A stretch of 41,944 nt of DNA from Collinsella aerofaciens (lineage in GTDB: Bacteria > Actinomycetota > Coriobacteriia > Coriobacteriales > Coriobacteriaceae). Positions 4,229-41,935 of the stretch are shown here, piece by piece (position 1 is the stretch's first letter; every line of letters starts with the position of its first letter). Position numbers and translations under genes: made by a program. The notes under the pieces are model-generated. The model had not been told where the DNA came from. It did not search any database and saw only the letters and a program-made list of their open reading frames with translations. The DNA is taken from NCBI RefSeq assembly GCF_009876115.1, contig NZ_WWSY01000018.1, forward strand, positions 1 through 41,944, in the 5' to 3' direction.

Positions 4229-4735
4229 ATGTCCCTGGAGCGCCTGGGGGTAGGTACTTACAAAACGACTTGCGCTGCCGATACGGAGTACTTTGGCGAG
4301 CTAATTGCACCGTGCCTTGAGGACGGCGATGTGCTCATCCTGACCGGTGGCCTGGGAGTGGGCAAAACTCACTTTACCAAGGGCGTCTCGCGCGGGCTGG
4401 GCGATGGGCATATGGTTACGAGTCCTACGTTTGCGCTCATGGCCGTTCACGATCAAGGTCGTATTCCGCTGTTTCACTTTGATCTATACCGCCTGGAGCA
4501 TGCCTACGAGCTCGAGGATACGGGCATTTTCGATGTGCTGGGCTATGAGGGTGCTTGCCTGCTGGAATGGGGCGAACAATTCCAGGACGAGCTGACGGAT
4601 GAGTATCTTTCGGTGACGCTCAAGCGTGATGAGGGCGACAGCGATGTGCGAACGATAACGCTTGAGGCGCACGGTGACCGCGCAATGGAGCTTTCCCATT
4701 TGATTGATAAGGCTGTACAAGATGAGCTTGCATAA
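4229..4735 (+). CDS. tsaE: tRNA threonylcarbamoyladenosine biosynthesis ATPase TsaE
   Basis: TsaE is the P-loop ATPase that works with TsaB and TsaD in making the t6A modification of ANN-decoding tRNAs. The Walker A motif GGLGVGKT lies near residue 40, followed by SPTFALM, HFDLYRLE and the LLEWGEQ motif. The length of 168 residues is typical. AAGGAG precedes the ATG. The gene overlaps the following tsaB-rimI-tsaD fusion by 14 bases, so all three known subunits of the bacterial t6A machinery other than TsaC are encoded together. Confidence 0.95.
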   Translation: MSLERLGVGTYKTTCAADTEYFGELIAPCLEDGDVLILTGGLGVGKTHFTKGVSRGLGDGHMVTSPTFALMAVHDQGRIPLFHFDLYRLEHAYELEDTGIFDVLGYEGACLLEWGEQFQDELTDEYLSVTLKRDEGDSDVRTITLEAHGDRAMELSHLIDKAVQDELA

Positions 4736-7106
4736 CGACAACGCGCTGGTGGTGGCGCTCGATACCTCGACCGACATGCTTGCCTGCGCGGCAAGCTGGA
4801 TTGATGGGCAGACGGGCGAGACGAAGCTCGTGAGTGGCGACCACATGTGTCGCCGTCACGCCAACGTTGAGCTCGTGAATACCGTTGATGGCGTGCTGGC
4901 TCAAGCCGGTCTGGATCGCAGCGATGTTGGTTGCTATGTGGTCGGTCGCGGCCCGGGGTCCTTTACGGGTGTGCGCATCGGCATCTCCACTGCCAAGGGC
5001 CTCGCGCGTGGTGCCAATGTTCCGCTGCTGGGCGTGTCGACGCTCGACGCTTGCGCTTGGACGGCGTGGAAGGCTGGCGTGCGCGGCAAGCTTGGTATCT
5101 TGGCCGATGCTATGCGCGGTGAGGTATATCCGGCGCTGTATATGCTGGTCGATGAGGGTCCCGAGCGTCAATTTGAGCGCGAACACGTGGTCAAGGCCGC
5201 CGTGGCGCTCGATGAGTGGCGCCGAGCAGCGGACTGGGACCAGGTTCAGCTGACCGGTGACGGTCTCGTGCGCTATGGCAAGCTGCTGGGTGAGGACGAG
5301 ACCGCCCGCTGCGTGGAGCGCGACCTGTGGTGGCCTTCGGGCGAGGGCTTGCTGCTCGCGCACGCTGCGGGTGACGGCGATCCGGCCCGCGTCCTGCCGA
5401 TTTACACGCGCCTTTCGGATGCCGAGGAAAACGAGCGCAAGCGTCTTGGTCTTGCCGAGAGTGCGCAGAGCGGAATTACGGGCGTTGCCGATGAGCTCGC
5501 CGGTCGTCATCTGCAGTTCCGTCCCATGGGCGCGGCGGATGCCGAGGGCGCGAGCGCGCTGGAGGCTGCCTGCTTTGAAGGTGCCGGACACGAGGCGTGG
5601 ACGCCGGGCATGTTCCTGTCCGAACTGGGCGAGGACGTCGCTGCGCCGCGTAGTTGGTGGGTGGCACACGACGACGGCAAGCTACTGGGCCTTGCCGGCG
5701 GTATGGTCGTGGACGGTGATGTGCAGATTCTGGATGTCGCCGTCGATCCGGCACATCGCCGTGAGGGCATTGCCCGCAAGCTGCTGTCGCATGTGAGCTA
5801 TGATGCCCAGATGCTCGGCTGCACCACGGCTTCGCTCGAGGTCGAGGACGGCAATGAGGGCGCGATTGCGCTCTATAACGCTCTGGGCTTTACCGAGGCA
5901 GGACGGCGCCGCGGCTACTATGGTGCCGGCAAGGATGCCATCGTCATGACGGCCCCGCTGCCCCTGGTGCTTCCGGTCGACAATGCTTCGCCCGAGCCGA
6001 CGGCGGCAGAGCAGCGCGTATGGCCGCTGCCTGCGCCTGGGCGCTCCGAGGGAGAGCGTGCCGAAATTGAGCGCCGCCGCCTAGTGCTCGCTATCGAGAG
6101 TTCCTGCGACGAGACGGCCGTGGCGATTATCGATGCGGATGGCAATATGCTGGCCAACCAGGTGTCGACACAGATTGATTTCCATGCCCGCTTTGGCGGC
6201 GTGGTGCCCGAGATCGCCTCGCGCAAACACGTTGAGGTGATTGTGAGTGTCGTGGATGCGGCGCTCGAGGATGCCGCAGCATCGCTTGGTCTTGAGGGTG
6301 GAGCCATTGCTCCCAGCGAGCTTGCCGCCGTGGGCGTGACACAGGGTCCGGGCCTGGTGGGCGCCCTCGTGGTGGGCGTTGCCTTTGCCAAAGGCTTTGC
6401 CTACGCTGCCGGTAAGCCGCTCGTATGCGTCAACCATCTGGAGGGGCACCTGTTTGCCAACTTGCTGGCGCAGCCCGACCTCAAGCCGCCGTTCATCTTC
6501 ACGCTTGTCTCGGGCGGGCATACCATGCTCGTGCACGTGAAGGCATGGGGCGACTACGAGGTCCTTGGTGAGACGCTCGACGATGCTGTGGGCGAGGCCT
6601 TCGACAAGGTAGCCAAGGCGTTGGGTCTGGGCTATCCCGGTGGCCCCATCATTTCCAAGCTGGCCGAGACGGGCAACCCCAAGGCGATCGATTTCCCCCG
6701 TGCGCTTAACAGCAGAGGAGACTATCGCTTCTCGCTTTCGGGCCTTAAAACCGCTGTGACGCTCTACATTGAACAGGAGACCAAGGCCGGGCGCACGATT
6801 CATCTGCCCGATCTGGCAGCTTCGTTTGAGGCAGCTGTCTTTGACGTGCAGTACAAGAAGGCCAAAAACGCATTGCACGCTACCGGATGCAAGGAATACT
6901 GCATCGGTGGCGGCGTCTCGGCCAACCCGCATCTGCGCGAGATGATGATCAAGAAGCTTGGGCGTCAGGGGATTCGCGTAACGGTGCCGCCCTTGTCTGC
7001 CTGTACCGATAACGCAGCCATGATTGCGGAGGTCGCTCGCCGTAAATTCGACCGAGGTGAAATCTCGCCGTTCGACGTCGACGCCGATCCAAACATGACG
7101 CTGTAG
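4722..7106 (+). CDS. tsaD: Fused TsaB - RimI acetyltransferase - TsaD (t6A synthesis)
   Basis: One 794-residue polypeptide joins three proteins that are usually separate. Residues about 1-235 are TsaB (VALDTSTD; RGPGSFTGVRIG). About 250-395 form a RimI-type GNAT acetyltransferase with the acetyl-CoA motif RREGIARKL and the ALYNALGF segment. About 448-794 are TsaD, which transfers threonylcarbamoyl to A37 (AIESSCDETA; metal site NHLEGH; TDNAAMIA at the end). The ATG at 4722 has AAGG nine bases upstream; an in-frame TTG at 4704 is a less likely start. TsaB and TsaD form a heterodimer in other bacteria, so the fusion would fix their stoichiometry. The stop is 12 bases before hairpin element 1. 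Confidence 0.95.
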   Translation: MSLHNDNALVVALDTSTDMLACAASWIDGQTGETKLVSGDHMCRRHANVELVNTVDGVLAQAGLDRSDVGCYVVGRGPGSFTGVRIGISTAKGLARGANVPLLGVSTLDACAWTAWKAGVRGKLGILADAMRGEVYPALYMLVDEGPERQFEREHVVKAAVALDEWRRAADWDQVQLTGDGLVRYGKLLGEDETARCVERDLWWPSGEGLLLAHAAGDGDPARVLPIYTRLSDAEENERKRLGLAESAQSGITGVADELAGRHLQFRPMGAADAEGASALEAACFEGAGHEAWTPGMFLSELGEDVAAPRSWWVAHDDGKLLGLAGGMVVDGDVQILDVAVDPAHRREGIARKLLSHVSYDAQMLGCTTASLEVEDGNEGAIALYNALGFTEAGRRRGYYGAGKDAIVMTAPLPLVLPVDNASPEPTAAEQRVWPLPAPGRSEGERAEIERRRLVLAIESSCDETAVAIIDADGNMLANQVSTQIDFHARFGGVVPEIASRKHVEVIVSVVDAALEDAAASLGLEGGAIAPSELAAVGVTQGPGLVGALVVGVAFAKGFAYAAGKPLVCVNHLEGHLFANLLAQPDLKPPFIFTLVSGGHTMLVHVKAWGDYEVLGETLDDAVGEAFDKVAKALGLGYPGGPIISKLAETGNPKAIDFPRALNSRGDYRFSLSGLKTAVTLYIEQETKAGRTIHLPDLAASFEAAVFDVQYKKAKNALHATGCKEYCIGGGVSANPHLREMMIKKLGRQGIRVTVPPLSACTDNAAMIAEVARRKFDRGEISPFDVDADPNMTL

Positions 7107-7118
7107 CTGGTACGGCGC

Positions 7119-7253
7119 GGTCCCCGGACGGAGGGGCCGGATATAAGGTTTCCTGCTCTACAGTCCTGCGCAAGACGAAGGCCACATTAAGTGGCCTTCT
7201 TTGCGTGCGGAACTCGCGATAAACCTTATATCCGGCCCCTCCGTCCGGGGACC
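7119..7253 (+). repeat. Hairpin element copy 1 (33-bp perfect arms, 69-nt core)
   Basis: Arms 7119-7151 and 7221-7253 are perfectly complementary over 33 bp. Between them is a 69-nt core (7152-7220) that begins CCTGCTCTACAGTCCTGC and ends CGGAACTCGCGAT. It encloses an inner 9-bp stem (7177-7185 with 7191-7199) with loop ATTAA. The same core, with different arms, occurs at 7397-7549 (inverted) and 12171-12307. It begins 12 bases after the tsaD stop and lacks a strong T tract, so it is not a plain terminator. Function unknown. Confidence 0.9.
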
Positions 7254-7361
7254 TTTCTGTATCGATATAGCTTCTGGGCTGGTTTGGCGTCGACAACGTC
7301 CAGCAAGGTTAACAAGCCAGCGTCGAATTTCCGGCGTGCTTTAGCTGAAAGAAAAAGTTGG

Positions 7362-7384
7362 TGTGCGGAGCTTTGCTCCGCACA
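7362..7384. other. 10-bp perfect hairpin between two hairpin elements
   Basis: TGTGCGGAGC (7362-7371) pairs perfectly with GCTCCGCACA (7375-7384) around TTT. Read on the - strand it is followed by CTTTTTC after a short gap, so it may be a weak terminator. The rest of 7254-7396 holds no gene or other clear signal. Confidence 0.5.
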
Positions 7385-7396
7385 TTTGGGATGGGA

Positions 7397-7549
7397 GCCC
7401 CTGAGAGCCGCGGGAGCCGGGCGGCGCATATGAACTTTATCGCGAGTTCCGCACGCAAAGGAAAGCACTTAATGTGCTTTCCGTCTTGCGCAGGACTGTA
7501 GAGCAGGAAAGTTCATATGCGCCGCCCGGCTCCCGCGGCTCTCAGGGGC
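7397..7549 (-). repeat. Hairpin element copy 2 (42-bp perfect arms, inverted orientation)
   Basis: Arms 7397-7438 and 7508-7549 are perfectly complementary over 42 bp. The 69-nt core (7439-7507) is the reverse complement of the copy 1 core. It has identical outer flanks and the same ATTAA loop, but a different, still fully paired inner stem (GGAAAGCAC with GTGCTTTCC). The arm sequence differs from that of copy 1. Only 143 bases separate the two copies. Confidence 0.9.
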
Positions 7550-7646
7550 ATCTCTCATGCAAAAACTGTCGTGGGGTAAAGTCCGAGGTCAATGGCGTTT
7601 TATACCGAGAAATTCAAAAAAGTTGAAAATTCATTACAAATTTGCG

Positions 7647-7675
7647 TTGACTTTAGGTAACTAAAGTTTCATACT
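7647..7675 (+). promoter_or_regulatory. cstA promoter with palindromic operator in the spacer
   Basis: TTGACT (7647-7652) and CATACT (7670-7675) are 17 bases apart. The palindrome ACTTTAG-GTAA-CTAAAGT (7650-7667) lies across the -35 edge and spacer, where a bound repressor would block RNA polymerase. The regulator is not identifiable from the site alone. Confidence 0.55.
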
Positions 7676-7693
7676 CCTTTTCAACCACTGGGG

Positions 7694-7722
7694 GATGTGA
7701 ACACGCACGGATCGTTCACATC
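7694..7722 (+). promoter_or_regulatory. Inverted repeat in cstA leader
   Basis: GATGTGAAC (7694-7702) and GTTCACATC (7714-7722) form perfect 9-bp arms around 11 bases, just after the predicted transcription start. It may be a DNA operator or a 5' mRNA hairpin. The TGTGA/TCACA half-sites recall CRP, but their spacing (15 bases rather than 6) does not fit a CRP site. Confidence 0.45.
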
Positions 7723-7746
7723 ATGATTGAAGAGGATTTCTTAGAC

Positions 7747-7791
7747 ATGTTCACGCATCAGCTAAACATTATCAGCGTAGTAATTATCTGA
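7747..7791 (+). CDS. Putative leader peptide MFTHQLNIISVVII
   Basis: A 14-codon ORF with an upstream AGAGGA-type ribosome binding site encodes a peptide in which seven of the last nine residues are Leu, Ile or Val (codons CTA, ATT, ATC, GTA, GTA, ATT, ATC). It is followed by an alternative hairpin and a strong terminator before cstA. This is the layout of classical amino-acid attenuation such as ilv leaders. Expression of the peptide is inferred, not shown. Confidence 0.5.
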   Translation: MFTHQLNIISVVII

Positions 7792-7808
7792 TGCGGGTTA
7801 GCACATAC

Positions 7809-7881
7809 AGCTGGCCCGTACGATAACGGGCGGCTGATGAAGATGAGGGCCGTCGAGCGCAACCGACGGCCCTCATTTTTT
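7809..7881 (+). terminator. Attenuator-like terminator in cstA leader
   Basis: The hairpin TGAGGGCCGTCG/CGACGGCCCTCA (7844-7855 with 7864-7875) is followed by six T residues and lies 36 bases before the cstA start, so it could stop transcription ahead of cstA. A preceding hairpin (GCCCGT 7814-7819 with ACGGGC 7826-7831, extended by CAGC/GCTG) contains GGCCC. That segment could also pair with GGGCC of the terminator and act as an antiterminator. Confidence 0.7.
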
Positions 7882-7916
7882 ATGTCTAGGAAGTTCTTTT
7901 TAGAGGAGGAAATGTA

Positions 7917-9806
7917 ATGAACGGAGTTTTGCTCATGGTTGTGGCCGCGGCGGTGCTCGCCTGCGGCTATCTGGGCTATGGCCGCTGGCTGGCCAACAAG
8001 TGGGGCGTTGACAAAGAGGCCCTCACGCCGGCCAAGCGCATGAAGGACGGCAAGAGCTTCTCGCCCGTCTCCGCCTTCACCGCGTTCTCGCACCAGTTCA
8101 GCTCGATCTGCGGTGCTGGCCCTGTCACGGGTACGATCGTCGCCATGGCCTTTGGCTGGCTGCCTGTCGTGCTCTGGGTCCTCATCGGCGGCATCTTCTT
8201 TGGCGCCGTCCACGACTTTGGTGCCCTGTACGCTTCGATGAAGAACAACGGCAAGTCGCTCGCTCAGCTCATCGAGAAGTACATCGGCAAGACCGGCCGT
8301 CGCCTGTTCCTGCTGTTCTGCTGGCTGTTCTGCATCATCGTCATCGCCGCCTTCACCGACATGGTCTGCAAGACGTTCATGTTCACCCCGGCCGTTGACG
8401 CTTCTGGTGCTGCTACCGGTGCCATCGACTTCACCAAGTCCTATGCCGCCGGCTGCGCTGGTACCATCTCCATCCTGTTCACCTTCGTCGCTATCGCCTT
8501 TGGTTGGGCCCAGAAGAAGTTCAACCTCACCGGCGCTGCCGAGTTCGTCACCGGCGTGGTCCTCATGGTTCTCATGTTCGCCGTCGGTATGCAGTTCCCG
8601 GTCTACCTGGATAAGTTCCAGTGGTTCGCCGTCGTCATGGTCTACCTGGTCTTCGCTGGCGCTATGCCCATCCAGATGCTCAAGACCCCGCGTGACTACC
8701 TCACTTCCATCATGATGATCGTCATGATCGTCTGCGCTGTCCTCGGCATCGTCGTCCTGGGCGTCAACGGTCAGGCCACTATCACCGCTCCGGTCTTCAC
8801 CGGCTTCTCCACTGCCTCCGGCATGATGTTCCCGGTCCTGTTCGTCTCCGTCGCTTGCGGTGCTCTCTCCGGTTTCCACAGCCTCGTTTCTTCCGGCACC
8901 TCTTCTAAGCAGGTCGAGAAGGAGCAGGACGCCGTCAAGGTCGGTTACGGCGCCATGATCGTCGAGTCCTTCGTCGGCATCCTTGCCATCATCGTCGCCG
9001 GCATCATGTTCTCCGACATGAACACCGCCGGTACCGGCGCCCTCAACGCCGGTGTCGCTTCCACCCCGTTCCAGATCTTCGCCGCTGGCATCTCCCGCGG
9101 TATGCAGGCCTTCGGTGTTGACGGCACGCTCGCTACCGTCTTTATGACCATGAACGTCTCCGCTCTGGCCCTGACCTCGCTCGACGCCGTCGCCCGCATC
9201 GCCCGCACCTCGTTCTCCGAGTTCTTTGCCCAGACCAACGATGCCCTGGCCATCGAGTCCAAGGCCGGCTATATGAAGGTCCTCGGCAACCCCTGGTTCG
9301 CCACGGTCGTTACCTTGCTTCCTGGTCTCGCCCTCGCTTTTGGTGGCTATGCCAACATCTGGCCGCTCTTTGGTGCTTCCAACCAGCTGCTCGGCGGCAT
9401 GACCATGATCACCCTCGCCGTGTTCTGCAAGTGCACCGGCCGCAAGGGCTGGATGCTCTATGTGCCCGTCGTCTTCCTGCTCTGCTGCACCTTCACCTCG
9501 CTGGTCCAGAGCGCCATGGGCTGCATGACCGCCGTCCAGGCCTACGGTTTCTTCGGTACCATCCCGGCTACCGCCACCACGGCCGCCGTCTCCGTCGCAG
9601 CCACCAAGGGCCTGCAGCTCGTCTTTGCCGTCCTGCTGATGGTCCTGGGCCTCATCGTTGCCGTTAACTGCCTCAAGGAGTTCTTCGGCAAGGAGGCCGG
9701 CTCCATGCCCGACGAGGAGCCCGAGTGGTCCGAGATGGGCAAGGCCGAGTACGGCCGCGCCGCTGCCGCTGAGGCTCCCGTCGACGCCGAGGCCGCCAAG
9801 GCTTAG
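7917..9806 (+). CDS. cstA: Carbon starvation protein CstA family transporter
   Basis: This polytopic membrane protein belongs to the CstA/BtsT family, whose studied members import peptides or pyruvate. Its 629 residues begin with the family signature GKSFSPVSAFTAFSHQFSSICGAGP in near-complete form (residues about 43-67). More than a dozen hydrophobic segments follow, and the tail is hydrophilic and acidic. It is shorter than E. coli CstA (about 700 residues). GAGGAGG sits just before the ATG. Codon use is strongly biased to C-ending codons, which suggests high expression. The leader (palindromic operator, Ile/Val peptide, terminator) suggests control by amino-acid supply. It stands alone between its own promoter and terminator. 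Confidence 0.9.
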   Translation: MNGVLLMVVAAAVLACGYLGYGRWLANKWGVDKEALTPAKRMKDGKSFSPVSAFTAFSHQFSSICGAGPVTGTIVAMAFGWLPVVLWVLIGGIFFGAVHDFGALYASMKNNGKSLAQLIEKYIGKTGRRLFLLFCWLFCIIVIAAFTDMVCKTFMFTPAVDASGAATGAIDFTKSYAAGCAGTISILFTFVAIAFGWAQKKFNLTGAAEFVTGVVLMVLMFAVGMQFPVYLDKFQWFAVVMVYLVFAGAMPIQMLKTPRDYLTSIMMIVMIVCAVLGIVVLGVNGQATITAPVFTGFSTASGMMFPVLFVSVACGALSGFHSLVSSGTSSKQVEKEQDAVKVGYGAMIVESFVGILAIIVAGIMFSDMNTAGTGALNAGVASTPFQIFAAGISRGMQAFGVDGTLATVFMTMNVSALALTSLDAVARIARTSFSEFFAQTNDALAIESKAGYMKVLGNPWFATVVTLLPGLALAFGGYANIWPLFGASNQLLGGMTMITLAVFCKCTGRKGWMLYVPVVFLLCCTFTSLVQSAMGCMTAVQAYGFFGTIPATATTAAVSVAATKGLQLVFAVLLMVLGLIVAVNCLKEFFGKEAGSMPDEEPEWSEMGKAEYGRAAAAEAPVDAEAAKA

Positions 9807-9847
9807 TTGACCTGACGAGTTGAACGTCACATCTATATGACTTGGAA

Positions 9848-9885
9848 AGACCGGGCCCGCGACTTCGCGGGCTCGGTCTTTTTTT
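9848..9885 (+). terminator. cstA terminator
   Basis: AGACCGGGCCCGCG pairs with CGCGGGCTCGGTCT (one G-T type mismatch) and is followed by seven T residues. It lies 41 bases after the cstA stop. Confidence 0.93.
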
Positions 9886-9990
9886 CATGCAAAAGCGGGT
9901 GACGCTCGAGTGTTCTCGCAGATGTTTTGCGTGGATAAGGGCGCGCGTTGTACCATATAGACGTATATGTGTGCATATGAAAGGGGCCCC

Positions 9991-12162
9991 GTGGCCAAGA
10001 CGGTATATTCCGATAACCAAAATAATGTCGATGCCCTGGCTGAACGTCTGAGCAGCCAGACGTCGCTTTCTGCCGAGCGTGCCAAGCTGGTTGCCTACGA
10101 CCTGCTCTGCCGCAAGGCGCTCAAGATTAAGTCGAGTGCGCTGGCGCAGATTTTCCGCTCCGTCGATAAGGAATGTGACACCAAGGCGATGCGCGATGAG
10201 CTTATCGCGGCAAATATCGTGACAAAGATCGAGGGTAGCGGCATTAACGGGCGCCCGGCGTTCTATACCATCAATGCCGAGATCCGCGATGCCCAGGAGC
10301 AACCTGCCGAGTCCGTCGAGGATTTTGTCGTCGAGGATTCCGCTGACGTGCCTGCTGTGGAAGAAGCTGCTCCGCGTGAGCATGTCGATACCGATGAGTT
10401 GCTCGATGAGAACGTCGTGCGTGCCTTTACGGCCAAGGCAGGACGCGGCGGTTTTGGCGGGGGCGGCAAGCGCGATGCGCAGCGCCGCGCCCAGCAGGAG
10501 CGCTTCCGTCGCGCCGTTGCTCAAAAGGGTGAGACGGATGCTGAGGCCGTCGAGGAAAAGTCCGTCGGGATGCAGGAGCCGACTCGCACTCAAGAGCATG
10601 CTGAGATCCAGGAGCCCAAGCGTCGCCGCGGTGCCCATTTTAAGGCCGAGCAGCGAGGTATTGCGTGCGAGGTCCAGGATTCCGTCGAGGCTGCTGACGC
10701 GTCCGATGAACTGGCCAAGAAGGCTCCGGGTTCATGCCGTCCCGGACGTTGTTTTGCGGGGCGTGCGTATCCCGTAAGGCGTCAGGAGAAGAGCGAGCCG
10801 GCTTCGGCCACTCAGGACGAGAAGGCCATTGAGCCGGCGGCTCGCGAACAGAAGCCTGTTGAGCCGCAGCTTGAGGTTGATGCCGAGGCCAAGGGCCAGC
10901 AGCCTACTGATGAGCAGGCGGAGCAGGGCGCGTCGAGCAAGCCTCGCCGCCGTCGCCATCGTGGGGGCCGCAGTTCCCATGCCGAGACTGCAGCCGAGAA
11001 GACCACGCCGCAGGACGAGGATGCGAAGGTCGAGGTTTCATCGGGGCAGCCTAAGCGCCAGCCAGCGAAGGAGAGTAAGTCCGATCGTCCGCAGAAGCAG
11101 GCGCCTATGCCGAAGCGCGAGCGCAATTCCCAAGGCGATTCTAAGCGCAAGTCTCAGAAGAAGCCGGAGTCTACCGCAGCAGATACCGCTGCCCAGCAGC
11201 CCAAGTCGGCAGTCCACGGCGAGGTCTCGGCGTTTGCCCTTGCCCGCGTTTTAGGCAGGCAGCTGCTCAAAGTTGTCCCTACGCCTACGGCGCTCTCTAA
11301 GATCAAGGAGCAGCAGACACAGATCGTAAAGGTCGAGGGCAAGGACGGCAAAAAGGCTCCGCAGCGCACTCAGCACAACGAGATGTCCAACCGCAAGATT
11401 GCCGAGGAAATCGCAATCATCCAGGCTTGGATCGAGCAGAACCGAGGTGCCGATACGCCGGTTGCCTCGCGCCGCCAGCGTGCCTACCAGATCTTTAACG
11501 ACGAGAAGGCTTTTGACGGCAAGCACGGTGAGCGCCTGATCAGACGTATGACCGAAAAGGGCATTAGCATGCAGGCGATCAAGGTCGCCCCCAATCGCCC
11601 CGTGCACTTTACGGGCTTCTTTACGCTGGGTGCCGACAAGCCGTTCATTATGGTCGAGAACCTGGATACCTACGACGAGATCGTCAAGCTCCTGCGCGGA
11701 CGCAAACATGCCAAGCTCTTTGGTACCAAGGTGGGCGGCGTGATTTTTGGCGGCGGCTGCAAGGCGAGCGTCTCGCACGCACTGGATGATTATCTGGCTG
11801 AGATTGGCTATCGCTTTAACTACGTCTACTACGTGGGTGATATCGATCGCGAGGGCGCGCGCATCGTCGAGCAGGCTCGCAATGCCAATGTGGTTGAGAT
11901 TCGCCTGCATGCCGGCATGTACCGCGCCATGCTCGCCGAGCATAAGCGTCGCGTGAAGGCCGGCGGCGAGTGCGAGCCCGCGGCTGCCAACCAGGGCGTG
12001 CCGCAGAACCTGGCAGCGACGATCAAGGATCTGCCCATGGTTACGCGCGTGCAGTTCCGCAACGTGCTACGTGAAGGCGGGCGCATTCCGCAGGAGATTC
12101 TGATGACCGCAGACTATCGGGATGGCGACTCGGGAAGCTTCGACCGCATGCTGAACAACTAG
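9991..12162 (+). CDS. Uncharacterised protein: N-terminal helix-turn-helix-like region, charged linker, JetD/Toprim-like C-terminus
   Basis: This 723-residue protein is not one I recognise by name. Residues about 1-100 look like a winged helix. About 105-420 are low complexity, rich in Glu, Lys, Pro, Gln and Arg, probably disordered. About 425-723 form a folded domain with MVENLDTYDE, VIFGGGCKASVSHALDD and YYVGDIDREGARI. The E / GGG / D-x-D pattern resembles the Toprim fold of JetD (DUF2220), the nuclease of Wadjet systems. No JetA, JetB or JetC is nearby. The GTG at 9991 is chosen because AAAGGGG precedes it; an ATG at 9967 has no such site. The family assignment is an inference. Confidence 0.6.
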   Translation: MAKTVYSDNQNNVDALAERLSSQTSLSAERAKLVAYDLLCRKALKIKSSALAQIFRSVDKECDTKAMRDELIAANIVTKIEGSGINGRPAFYTINAEIRDAQEQPAESVEDFVVEDSADVPAVEEAAPREHVDTDELLDENVVRAFTAKAGRGGFGGGGKRDAQRRAQQERFRRAVAQKGETDAEAVEEKSVGMQEPTRTQEHAEIQEPKRRRGAHFKAEQRGIACEVQDSVEAADASDELAKKAPGSCRPGRCFAGRAYPVRRQEKSEPASATQDEKAIEPAAREQKPVEPQLEVDAEAKGQQPTDEQAEQGASSKPRRRRHRGGRSSHAETAAEKTTPQDEDAKVEVSSGQPKRQPAKESKSDRPQKQAPMPKRERNSQGDSKRKSQKKPESTAADTAAQQPKSAVHGEVSAFALARVLGRQLLKVVPTPTALSKIKEQQTQIVKVEGKDGKKAPQRTQHNEMSNRKIAEEIAIIQAWIEQNRGADTPVASRRQRAYQIFNDEKAFDGKHGERLIRRMTEKGISMQAIKVAPNRPVHFTGFFTLGADKPFIMVENLDTYDEIVKLLRGRKHAKLFGTKVGGVIFGGGCKASVSHALDDYLAEIGYRFNYVYYVGDIDREGARIVEQARNANVVEIRLHAGMYRAMLAEHKRRVKAGGECEPAAANQGVPQNLAATIKDLPMVTRVQFRNVLREGGRIPQEILMTADYRDGDSGSFDRMLNN

Positions 12163-12170
12163 ATTCTGCC

Positions 12171-12307
12171 GGCCCCGGGAGAGCGGGGACACCGGCTTAG
12201 GTTTCCTGCTCTACAGTCCTGCTCACGACGGAGGCCACATTAAGTGGCCTCCTGTTCGTGCGGAACTCGCGATAAACCTAAGCCGGTGTCCCCGCTCTCC
12301 CGGGGCC
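12171..12307 (+). repeat. Hairpin element copy 3 (34-bp perfect arms)
   Basis: Arms 12171-12204 and 12274-12307 are perfectly complementary over 34 bp. The 69-nt core (12205-12273) shares CCTGCTCTACAGTCCTGC, loop ATTAA and CGGAACTCGCGAT with copies 1 and 2, with another fully paired inner stem (GGAGGCCAC with GTGGCCTCC). It starts eight bases after the preceding stop codon. Arms of copies 1 and 3 are loosely alike in pattern but not in sequence. Confidence 0.9.
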
Positions 12308-12427
12308 TGTGGTTACTTGGTTGTTGCATGCGGCTCGCTTTTCGGAACAGGGCTGATAATTCTAGATGCAAGGCGCTCTTGGTCGTTATGGGCCTGGGGC
12401 GTCTGTCTTATATAGGTAGATTCCTTG

Positions 12428-12452
12428 CGGGTTCGAATCCCTCCGCTTGCCC
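12428..12452 (+). pseudogene. tRNA 3'-end fragment
   Basis: The + strand reads GCGGGTTCGAATCCC, then TCCGCTTGCCCA: a T-arm and CCA-like end with no matching 5' half. Seventeen bases (GGGTTCGAATCCCTCCG) equal the T-arm of the intact tRNA-Gln on the opposite strand 50 bases away. A degenerate copy of the nearby terminator hairpin lies at about 12371-12404. It is likely a relic of a duplicated tRNA gene or of an integration event. Confidence 0.45.
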
Positions 12453-12460
12453 ACAAGAAA

Positions 12461-12500: not shown

Positions 12501-12575
12501 TGGCTGGGACGGAGGGATTCGAACCCCCAACAGCCGGCACCAAAAACCGGAGTTCTACCGTTGAACTACGTCCCA
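12501..12575 (-). tRNA. tRNA-Gln (anticodon TTG)
   Basis: The - strand folds as a complete tRNA of 75 bases. It has a 7-bp acceptor stem (TGGGACG with CGTCCCA), D arm GTTCAACGGTAGAAC, an anticodon loop with TTG inside a CCGG/CCGG stem, T loop TTCGAAT, discriminator G and an encoded CCA. The initial T-A acceptor pair and G discriminator are typical for tRNA-Gln. Confidence 0.95.
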
Positions 12576-18191: not shown

Positions 18192-18232
18192 CCGGCTAGC
18201 TCGCAGCCTGACGAGACTTATGCCCTCAAAGC

Positions 18233-18281
18233 GAAAACGCCCGGTCAAACCGACGATGCATCGGTTTGACCGGGCGTTTTC
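18233..18281. terminator. Terminator after the GntR gene
   Basis: A perfect 21-bp stem (18233-18253 with 18261-18281) has a 7-base loop. Its ends are AAAA and TTTT, so it can act as a terminator in both directions. It lies 42 bases after the regulator stop. Confidence 0.85.
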
Positions 18282-18302
18282 TCTGCATTCGATAACAAAT
18301 AA

Positions 18303-41809: not shown

Positions 41810-41893
41810 GCACAGAGAGATCGACTTCTCGAGGACTCCCTAAATGGAACGCGCGGTGAGGACATGGCCTTGATTCTCATCTTCATTGCAACA

Positions 41894-41935
41894 GCCTCAG
41901 GACTCAGCGCAACGCGTTGCGCTGAGTCCTGAGGC
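41894..41935. repeat. 42-bp perfect palindrome without loop
   Basis: The sequence reads the same on both strands across 42 bases, centred between 41914 and 41915 (centre AACG/CGTT), with no spacer. It lies upstream of the ATPase-nuclease operon and has no T tract, so it is not a usual terminator. It may be a cruciform site, a recombination scar or an operator. Confidence 0.85.

Follow-up and report, generated by a model that had tools for sequence, protein, structure and literature searches.

We found that three long hairpins in a Collinsella aerofaciens contig (NZ_WWSY01000018.1, 41,944 nt, the whole of which was analysed and is called the window below) belong to a multicopy family that stands at the edges of genes in the class Coriobacteriia. 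Members of this family, three of which lie within positions 7,119-12,307 of the window, carry a conserved internal-loop motif (about GCTYRGACAGTCCT / GCGGAACTCGC) between two helices whose sequence is free and whose pairing is kept, with an outer stem, formed by the arms, of mostly 23-44 bp and a total length of 130-160 bp. Our best reading, to which we give slightly less than an even chance, is that these hairpins form a new gene-edge class of Coriobacteriia resembling repetitive extragenic palindromic (REP) elements, with arms kept matched by template switching, a role at transcript boundaries, and perhaps tolerance by their hosts after loss of SbcCD.

Reading of the sequence together with a script bore out the layout given in a preliminary description of the window, namely three hairpins with cores of 69 nt in which the left flank CCTGCTCTACAGTCCTGC, the loop ATTAA and the right flank CGGAACTCGCGAT are the same in all three copies, while the 9-bp inner stems (GAAGGCCAC, GGAAAGCAC and GGAGGCCAC) differ between copies and are each fully paired. 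The outer arms, given there as 33, 42 and 34 bp, are indeed perfect within each copy and different between copies. An 18-mer covering the left motif (up to 3 mismatches) is found 3 times in the window vs. 0.03 expected by chance, and under RNA parameters the three elements fold at -102 to -127 kcal/mol over both strands.

The combination of conserved unpaired and changing paired segments, proposed from these three copies, extends to the whole family. In an alignment of 74 elements, which was fitted to the covariance model and therefore leans towards the structure, 97.0% of 2217 cells are standard pairs, 26 of 30 pairs show changes on both sides, and 636 cells are changed on both sides, a level that none of 500 shuffles reached and to be compared with at most 51% for slid structures. 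A MAFFT alignment of 20 elements (A1) gives a similar result (121 both-side vs. 2 one-side changes). The consensus and the folds of single elements suggest a module of the form arm - GC - bulge UCRGAC - AGUCC - (U) - terminal stem - GG(A)ACU - C - GC - arm, in which the three central UCC/GGA pairs (helix 3) show no both-side change and are thus without covariation support. At columns 12/104 of alignment A3, close to where the arms meet the core, an A·C mismatch (G·T if read on the opposite strand) is seen repeatedly, and 29 of 74 cells are unpaired.

Like layout and covariation, the spread of the family was computed directly. Of 43 Collinsella genomes, 22 contain exact copies of the two-sided pattern (2-13 each), and the nearest comparison genome, which has 33% of sampled words in common with the window, holds 13 exact 14-nt left motifs. 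A first covariance model built from the 20 elements of A1 matched 61 of the 65 genomes of the family Coriobacteriaceae (5 of 6 genera) at E <= 0.01, and a broader model built from 74 elements matched 136 of 296 Coriobacteriia genomes at E <= 1e-5, 20 of them from other orders of the class; in a sample of the phylum (n = 246), 13 genomes matched, all in the window's order. Distinct places listed number at least 23, 25 and 33 in genomes G017, G038 and G028, respectively, and per-genome model matches include reverse-strand matches of strong copies and are limited by the number of candidates scored. At several loci (e.g., L032, L037, L042 and L051) contigs end inside the element, so that the family may be undercounted and the hairpins may break assemblies. 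A loose pattern recovered both core halves in 28 of 30 loci that belong to other families in the order and class; a further 27 loci, most of them basal, include 21 in which both halves come with pairing arms. Across the class, the two halves are separated by a terminal part of widely differing length and sequence, and one subtype has a core of 68 nt instead of 69. A second, smaller hairpin family of like design, CAATCTGACGTTCAACTTC - variable stem - TTGTTTCACGTCACCTT with arms of its own (L076, L080, L092, L098 and L366-L380), was seen with its exact pattern at 15 places in 13 of 42 Collinsella genomes.

Element 1 of the window, which follows the tsaD gene, allowed conservation to be assessed at a single site, with loci retrieved through tsaD alone, without the element motif, and hence free of motif bias. 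All 22 clade genomes have the element there, in 2 of them truncated by the end of a contig. Across 33 elements from both positions in the tsaD region (one reverse-strand reading left out), CAGTCCTGC and GCGGAACTCGCGAT hold one substitution in total and the 9 nt preceding them differ in 4 of 33, 3 of these being the CTCGGA form, compared with a mean difference of 9.3% in the flanks of C. aerofaciens alleles. This set includes 3 CTCGGACAG-form alleles that an earlier loop count over 31 elements had missed, and it replaces a loop difference of 0.18% that was biased by its 100 stretches having been picked by the exact left motif. Distant Collinsella genomes without the element at tsaD mostly have other downstream sequence and are not certain empty sites. 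In genome G040, a perfect ~48-bp hairpin that lacks the conserved core and closes in a loop of a few nt stands 3' of tsaD (L168), and other core-less hairpins are present besides.

Position and orientation relative to genes were also computed directly. Among 137 sites with both gene edges called, the left side of the element is the one nearer to a coding sequence (CDS) in 105 (p = 3e-10). Left stop codons lie a median of 14 nt from the arm (57 of 74 within 30 nt), compared with 130 nt for right stop codons (14 of 75), 72 nt for left starts (20 of 63) and 108.5 nt for right starts (5 of 62), after duplicate flanks were dropped. Other counts left out rows with an arm score below 10 (flanking bases, cross-genome clusters and mismatches), badly misaligned flank pairs (flank differences) and 4 of 33 basal loci outside the pattern, and the heuristic for gene edges assigns the wrong left gene at some basal loci where a Band_7 or HD gene stands. 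Between co-directional genes, 55 copies are sense and 56 antisense, and the remaining sites are convergent (19) or divergent (7). All 25 distinct close pairs in the loci examined point at each other, as the first two elements of the window do, the exception among neighbour pairs being one same-direction pair with weak scores in G097. Antisense copies beside a start codon are a repeated finding at three genes, thrB, cysS and one like serA, which NCBIfam identified in one member of each; the serA-like match fell short of the equivalog cut-off.

The same positions recur far from Collinsella. In basal families, hairpins stand 3' of the stop codon of a Band_7 gene (L402, L404, L408 and L415; 4 genomes, 2 families) and of purA (L337, L407 and L417; 3 genomes, 2 families), as well as 3' of an HD-domain gene (L409, L414 and L422), a GXGXG-domain gene (L338 and L339), rho (L336), a yebC-type gene (L335) and a tRNA-synthetase gene (L421), these neighbours being named by Pfam or NCBIfam on one member each and otherwise by likeness of sequence. 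Direct comparison of flanks further yielded 26 cross-genome clusters with matching left-flank open reading frames (ORFs), defined by blastp and not individually checked, and some of these sites are common to different genera and families. Along the chromosome of G129, the elements (24 in all) are mostly on the minus strand between ~0.5 and 2.3 Mb and mostly on the plus strand elsewhere, as if following replichores, and G125, G142 and G179 look mixed.

The arms of these hairpins change freely and stay matched as they do so. At a single site, arms can be quite different between strains with pairing kept, and arms differ in most of the 26 clusters, those of G044 and G046 being nearly identical. 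Within the C. aerofaciens clade, 43 of 76 distinct elements have no mismatch over the pairing stretch and 33 have 1-3. Copies with unpaired arms, which the preliminary description had counted as evidence against its proposal, do occur, as 7 of the 76 (5 among the 43) pair over at most 12 bp; most of these are joins of two known alleles, with both arms traceable by eye to known alleles or sites in 6 of the 7. Assembly error may be the source of such rows, and the hybrids fit recombination inside the near-identical core. Over 70 close allele pairs, which are not independent of one another, we counted 43 coordinated double changes, 46 left-only and 44 right-only changes, where by our own estimate independent mutation would yield fewer than one double change. 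At one site the core is flipped relative to its flanks (L117 vs. L009/L122), and L107 and L076 are rearrangements with breakpoints in the terminal loop, for which assembly error is possible. A survey of alleles also revealed fusions at L028, L041 and L147 and a deletion-like core-less allele (L053 and L157, probably one genome), its loci having mostly been fetched via the element itself and thus giving no measure of empty-site frequency.

If the pairing were selected in RNA, G·U should be tolerated above A·C, and this expectation is borne out in neither arms nor inner stems. Among 234 distinct arm pairs (7571 cells) there are 152 G·T, 193 A·C and 253 other mismatches, and the inner stems (1468 cells) hold 5, 5 and 12. 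A·C mismatches cluster at two positions of the arm, 8 and 10 when counted from the first pair; a recount beyond 8 bp with these two positions left out gave 81 G·T and 79 A·C. By subset, G·T and A·C number 16 and 10 in C. aerofaciens elements, 49 and 47 in stop-side elements, and 23 and 33 in start-side elements.

According to two published accounts (PMC8794818, PMC8604942), template switching makes and keeps perfect hairpins and causes spacer inversion, and the marks described there for replication template switching are arm homogenisation, coordinated change and spacer inversion. The Coriobacteriia hairpins show this same set, with 43 coordinated double changes beside 90 single ones and the core flip at L117; the cases described there are mutations in RNA genes and yeast genes and do not form a family of dispersed copies that share a core. 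We infer that the long arms probably stay matched by DNA template switching during copying: on meeting the palindrome, the nascent strand would switch template and copy one arm from the other, erasing mismatches at the DNA level, so that arms could drift to any sequence and yet stay matched, and spacers could flip. Of the two origins suggested for the perfect arms in the preliminary description, upkeep at the DNA level by template switching fits best and is well supported. The other, an insertion that copies its flank in inverted form, is not supported, as 3- to 6-nt direct repeats next to the arms occur no more often than in shuffles, some sites are common to different genera with different arms, and the core-less allele L053/L157 looks like a hairpin deletion, evidence that is not decisive given that the sites compared include no certain empty one.

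As to what the hairpins do, each may form a boundary at the edge of the facing coding region and would most likely act in the transcript leaving that gene, where candidate roles are 3'-end protection or processing and factor-dependent termination, or, beside start codons, that of a leader hairpin; the internal loop would serve as a putative protein-binding site. We put such a gene-boundary role at about even odds. A more far-reaching version, which we hold possible but doubtful, is that a fixed internal-loop module is read, in folded DNA or RNA, by a putative class-specific protein and is set between stems that need only pair and are rewritten by replication, the loss of SbcCD having let long perfect palindromes become stable, copy-specific gene boundaries across the class.

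SbcCD is known to remove hairpins of such kind (a point also made in PMC3733652), and long palindromes are perhaps tolerated in these hosts because they lack it. In a search with TIGR00619 of 25 genomes chosen beforehand by element presence or absence, SbcD was found above the cut-off in 0 of 13 element-bearing vs. 5 of 12 element-free genomes (Fisher p = 0.015), which makes a link between SbcCD loss and palindrome survival suggestive. At E <= 0.001, five weak cases appear among the bearers (G091, G125, G129, G142 and G179), in which a metallophosphatase adjoining an AAA_27 protein has its match confined to the first third of the SbcD model and is without the SbcD C-terminal domain; a positive control, G069, has a true SbcD-SbcC pair.

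Several points weigh against the reading of a template-switch-kept class with a boundary role in hosts that have lost SbcCD. The SbcD contrast vanishes at the looser threshold (5 of 13 bearers vs. 5 of 12 element-free genomes), the metallophosphatase/AAA_27 pair of the bearers may have Mre11-Rad50-like activity, and of 14 control genomes only 8 reach the TIGR00619 cut-off. SbcD is also missing from 7 of the 12 element-free genomes and from all 12 family-f1 genomes in the set, 4 of them element-free, so that relatedness is not removed from the comparison. Gene edges come from an ORF heuristic, under which 69 of 206 sites lacked a call for both edges and were left out. The near-equality of sense and antisense copies between co-directional genes does not fit a simple one-strand RNA element, a U-tract after the hairpin is absent (mean of 2.32 T in 9 nt, with at least 5 T in 20 of 241), and the missing G·U preference, being expected also from neutral decay plus DNA conversion, is no support for an RNA role. 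Single-arm changes are common (90 vs. 43 coordinated in the 70 close allele pairs). Finally, cores within the C. aerofaciens clade are more alike than they are to those of other species at common sites, and spread from copy to copy fits this likeness as well as concerted evolution does.

The main rival explanation, which we consider unlikely, is a non-autonomous mobile DNA hairpin of REP-like, attC-like or miniature inverted-repeat transposable element (MITE) type, in which a transposase or recombinase reads the folded strand via the internal loop and the arms are a by-product of insertion. Copy numbers (2-13 exact copies in 22 Collinsella genomes, and the many places in G017, G038 and G028), the 25 of 25 facing pairs and the clade-specific core variants all suit mobility, and free stems around a fixed module bring to mind recombination sites that act as folded DNA, such as attC. 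However, 213 sites show no excess of target-site duplications (3-, 4-, 5- and 6-nt direct repeats at 23, 4, 2 and 1 sites vs. shuffled means of 29.8, 7.4, 2.2 and 0.7; 7-nt repeats at 1 vs. 0.1), and the conserved terminal inverted repeats of a MITE are likewise not seen, as the outer arms differ between copies and alleles. Sites common to genera and families, and the presence of element 1 at tsaD in every clade genome, argue in the same direction. A Y1 transposase partner of RAYT/IS200 type is inconsistent, with PF01797 in 8 of 13 bearers and 3 of 12 element-free genomes and missing from the carriers G017, G015, G125, G129 and G179; a past association is possible, and other transposase and recombinase families were not searched. 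Carriage by phages finds no backing in a blastn search of a phage collection (no match) or in viral contigs searched with the 18-mer and three core patterns, where none of 15 loci has both halves except a chance-like match at L363; the one plasmid record matched by blastn is a C. aerofaciens replicon of 900 kb that carries ribosomal protein genes. Because the allele survey is biased to occupied sites, we shifted slightly from our best reading towards this rival.

Comparison with known systems helps to delimit the family. REPs, as described in PMC3733652, are extragenic palindromes with many copies per genome, often dimers and mostly between co-directional or convergent genes, of 20-40 bp with stems of mostly 6-9 bp, an unpaired end tag and frequent G·T pairs; Collinsella, Eggerthella, Slackia and Cryptobacterium are absent from that paper's main text. 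The Coriobacteriia hairpins are also multicopy, extragenic, palindromic and often paired. They differ in their length of 130-160 bp, their long arms of free sequence, their central motif and their lack of a G·T preference, as well as in the 5 of 13 bearers without a Y1 transposase, and no end tag of the GTAG/CGTC kind is found, as arm ends differ, the flanking bases show none and the motif is internal. Integron attC sites form a hairpin just 3' of a stop codon in gene orientation, with stems recognised by shape, a variable terminal part, extrahelical bases and conserved outer R boxes, and are used by an integron integrase. The post-stop position, variable terminal part and extrahelical bases recur here, and stems recognised by shape would be a further likeness, but the Coriobacteriia hairpins are conserved in the middle and vary at the outer ends of their arms. 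With intrinsic terminators they have in common a GC-rich hairpin soon after a stop codon; unlike these, they lack a U-tract, have a very long stem and a conserved internal loop, and include antisense copies near starts. A likeness to the hairpin ribozyme was dropped as a short chance match.

The preliminary description had left open whether the layout marks a structured RNA or a hairpin DNA element and knew of no family that has it. The alternation of conserved and changing segments holds, and RNA as the cause of the pairing finds no support in the mismatch spectrum. We consider improbable a cis-acting structured RNA, be it a leader, terminator or processing signal, in which selection on RNA pairing keeps the stems matched with no special DNA mechanism: the sense position a median of 14 nt past stop codons, found also at many basal loci, speaks for it together with the conserved loops and strong covariation, but G·U is not preferred over A·C in arms or inner stems in either orientation class, about half of the co-directional copies are antisense, and no Rfam family matches. 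Specifically, cmscan of the window against Rfam 15 at gathering scores returned only 5S rRNA and tRNA, and cmscan of ten diverse loci at E <= 0.1 gave 4 weak matches far below cut-off (3 miRNA and AsrC); a search of the open-access literature, with subscription papers and preprints outside its scope, returned no report of this family. Very improbable is a neutral origin, in which hairpins accumulate at gene ends after SbcCD loss and are homogenised, the core being a relic without a present role. The SbcD pattern and core-less hairpins such as the perfect one 3' of tsaD in G040 would suit it, but loops change far more slowly than flanks, other orders of the class retain the module, and orientation at gene edges is strict.

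The family offers hundreds of natural copies as material for studying how perfect stems evolve. Its strong covariation without G·U preference separates upkeep by DNA copying from pairing selected in RNA, an old question of hairpin evolution, and warns that covariation alone is no proof of a functional RNA. The effect of SbcCD loss on palindromes becomes testable, and the conserved internal loop at gene ends points to a putative factor that reads it in Collinsella and other common gut bacteria.

Coordinates of the three hairpins and of the genes beside them in the window
Feature	Position	Strand	Remarks
TsaB-RimI-TsaD fusion, 5' of element 1	4704..7106	+	800 aa from first possible start
Element 1 left arm	7119..7151	+	33 bp, perfect vs. 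7221-7253; 12 nt from tsaD stop codon
Element 1 core	7152..7220	+	69 nt; model R1 score 116.5 bits
Element 1 inner stem	7177-7185 / 7191-7199	+	loop ATTAA 7186-7190
Element 1 right arm	7221..7253	+	
Element 2 right arm	7397..7438	-	minus-strand element; 42 bp perfect, 45 bp with mismatches allowed
Element 2 core	7439..7507	-	69 nt; inverted vs. element 1 (-> <-); model R1 115.7 bits
Element 2 left arm	7508..7549	-	faces cstA leader and gene (CDS 7917-9806)
Carbon starvation protein, CstA-like, beside element 2	7917..9806	+	NCBIfam match below equivalog cut-off
731-aa hypothetical protein, 5' of element 3	9967..12162	+	without NCBIfam match
Element 3 left arm	12171..12204	+	34 bp perfect, 36 with mismatches allowed; starts 8 nt from stop codon of ORF 9967-12162
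Element 3 core	12205..12273	+	69 nt; model R1 118.2 bits
Element 3 right arm	12274..12307	+	

The gene preceding element 1 gives successive matches to TsaB, RimI (below cut-off) and TsaD, i.e., it is a three-part fusion, and the gene at this site is tsaD in the annotated relative NZ_OY725717.1. Upstream of cstA, positions 7749-7916 include a short ORF (MFTHQLNIISVVII, ending in a stop codon), which in one relative is followed by a hairpin and a T-run, like a leader-peptide attenuator. The window also has two core-less hairpins, a 20-bp palindrome with a 2-nt centre (41893-41935) and a 24-bp terminator-like stem (18229-18284). Shortly after element 3, positions 12424-12453, where no tRNA is called, resemble a tRNA 3' half in opposite orientation to the tRNA-Gln at 12501-12575.

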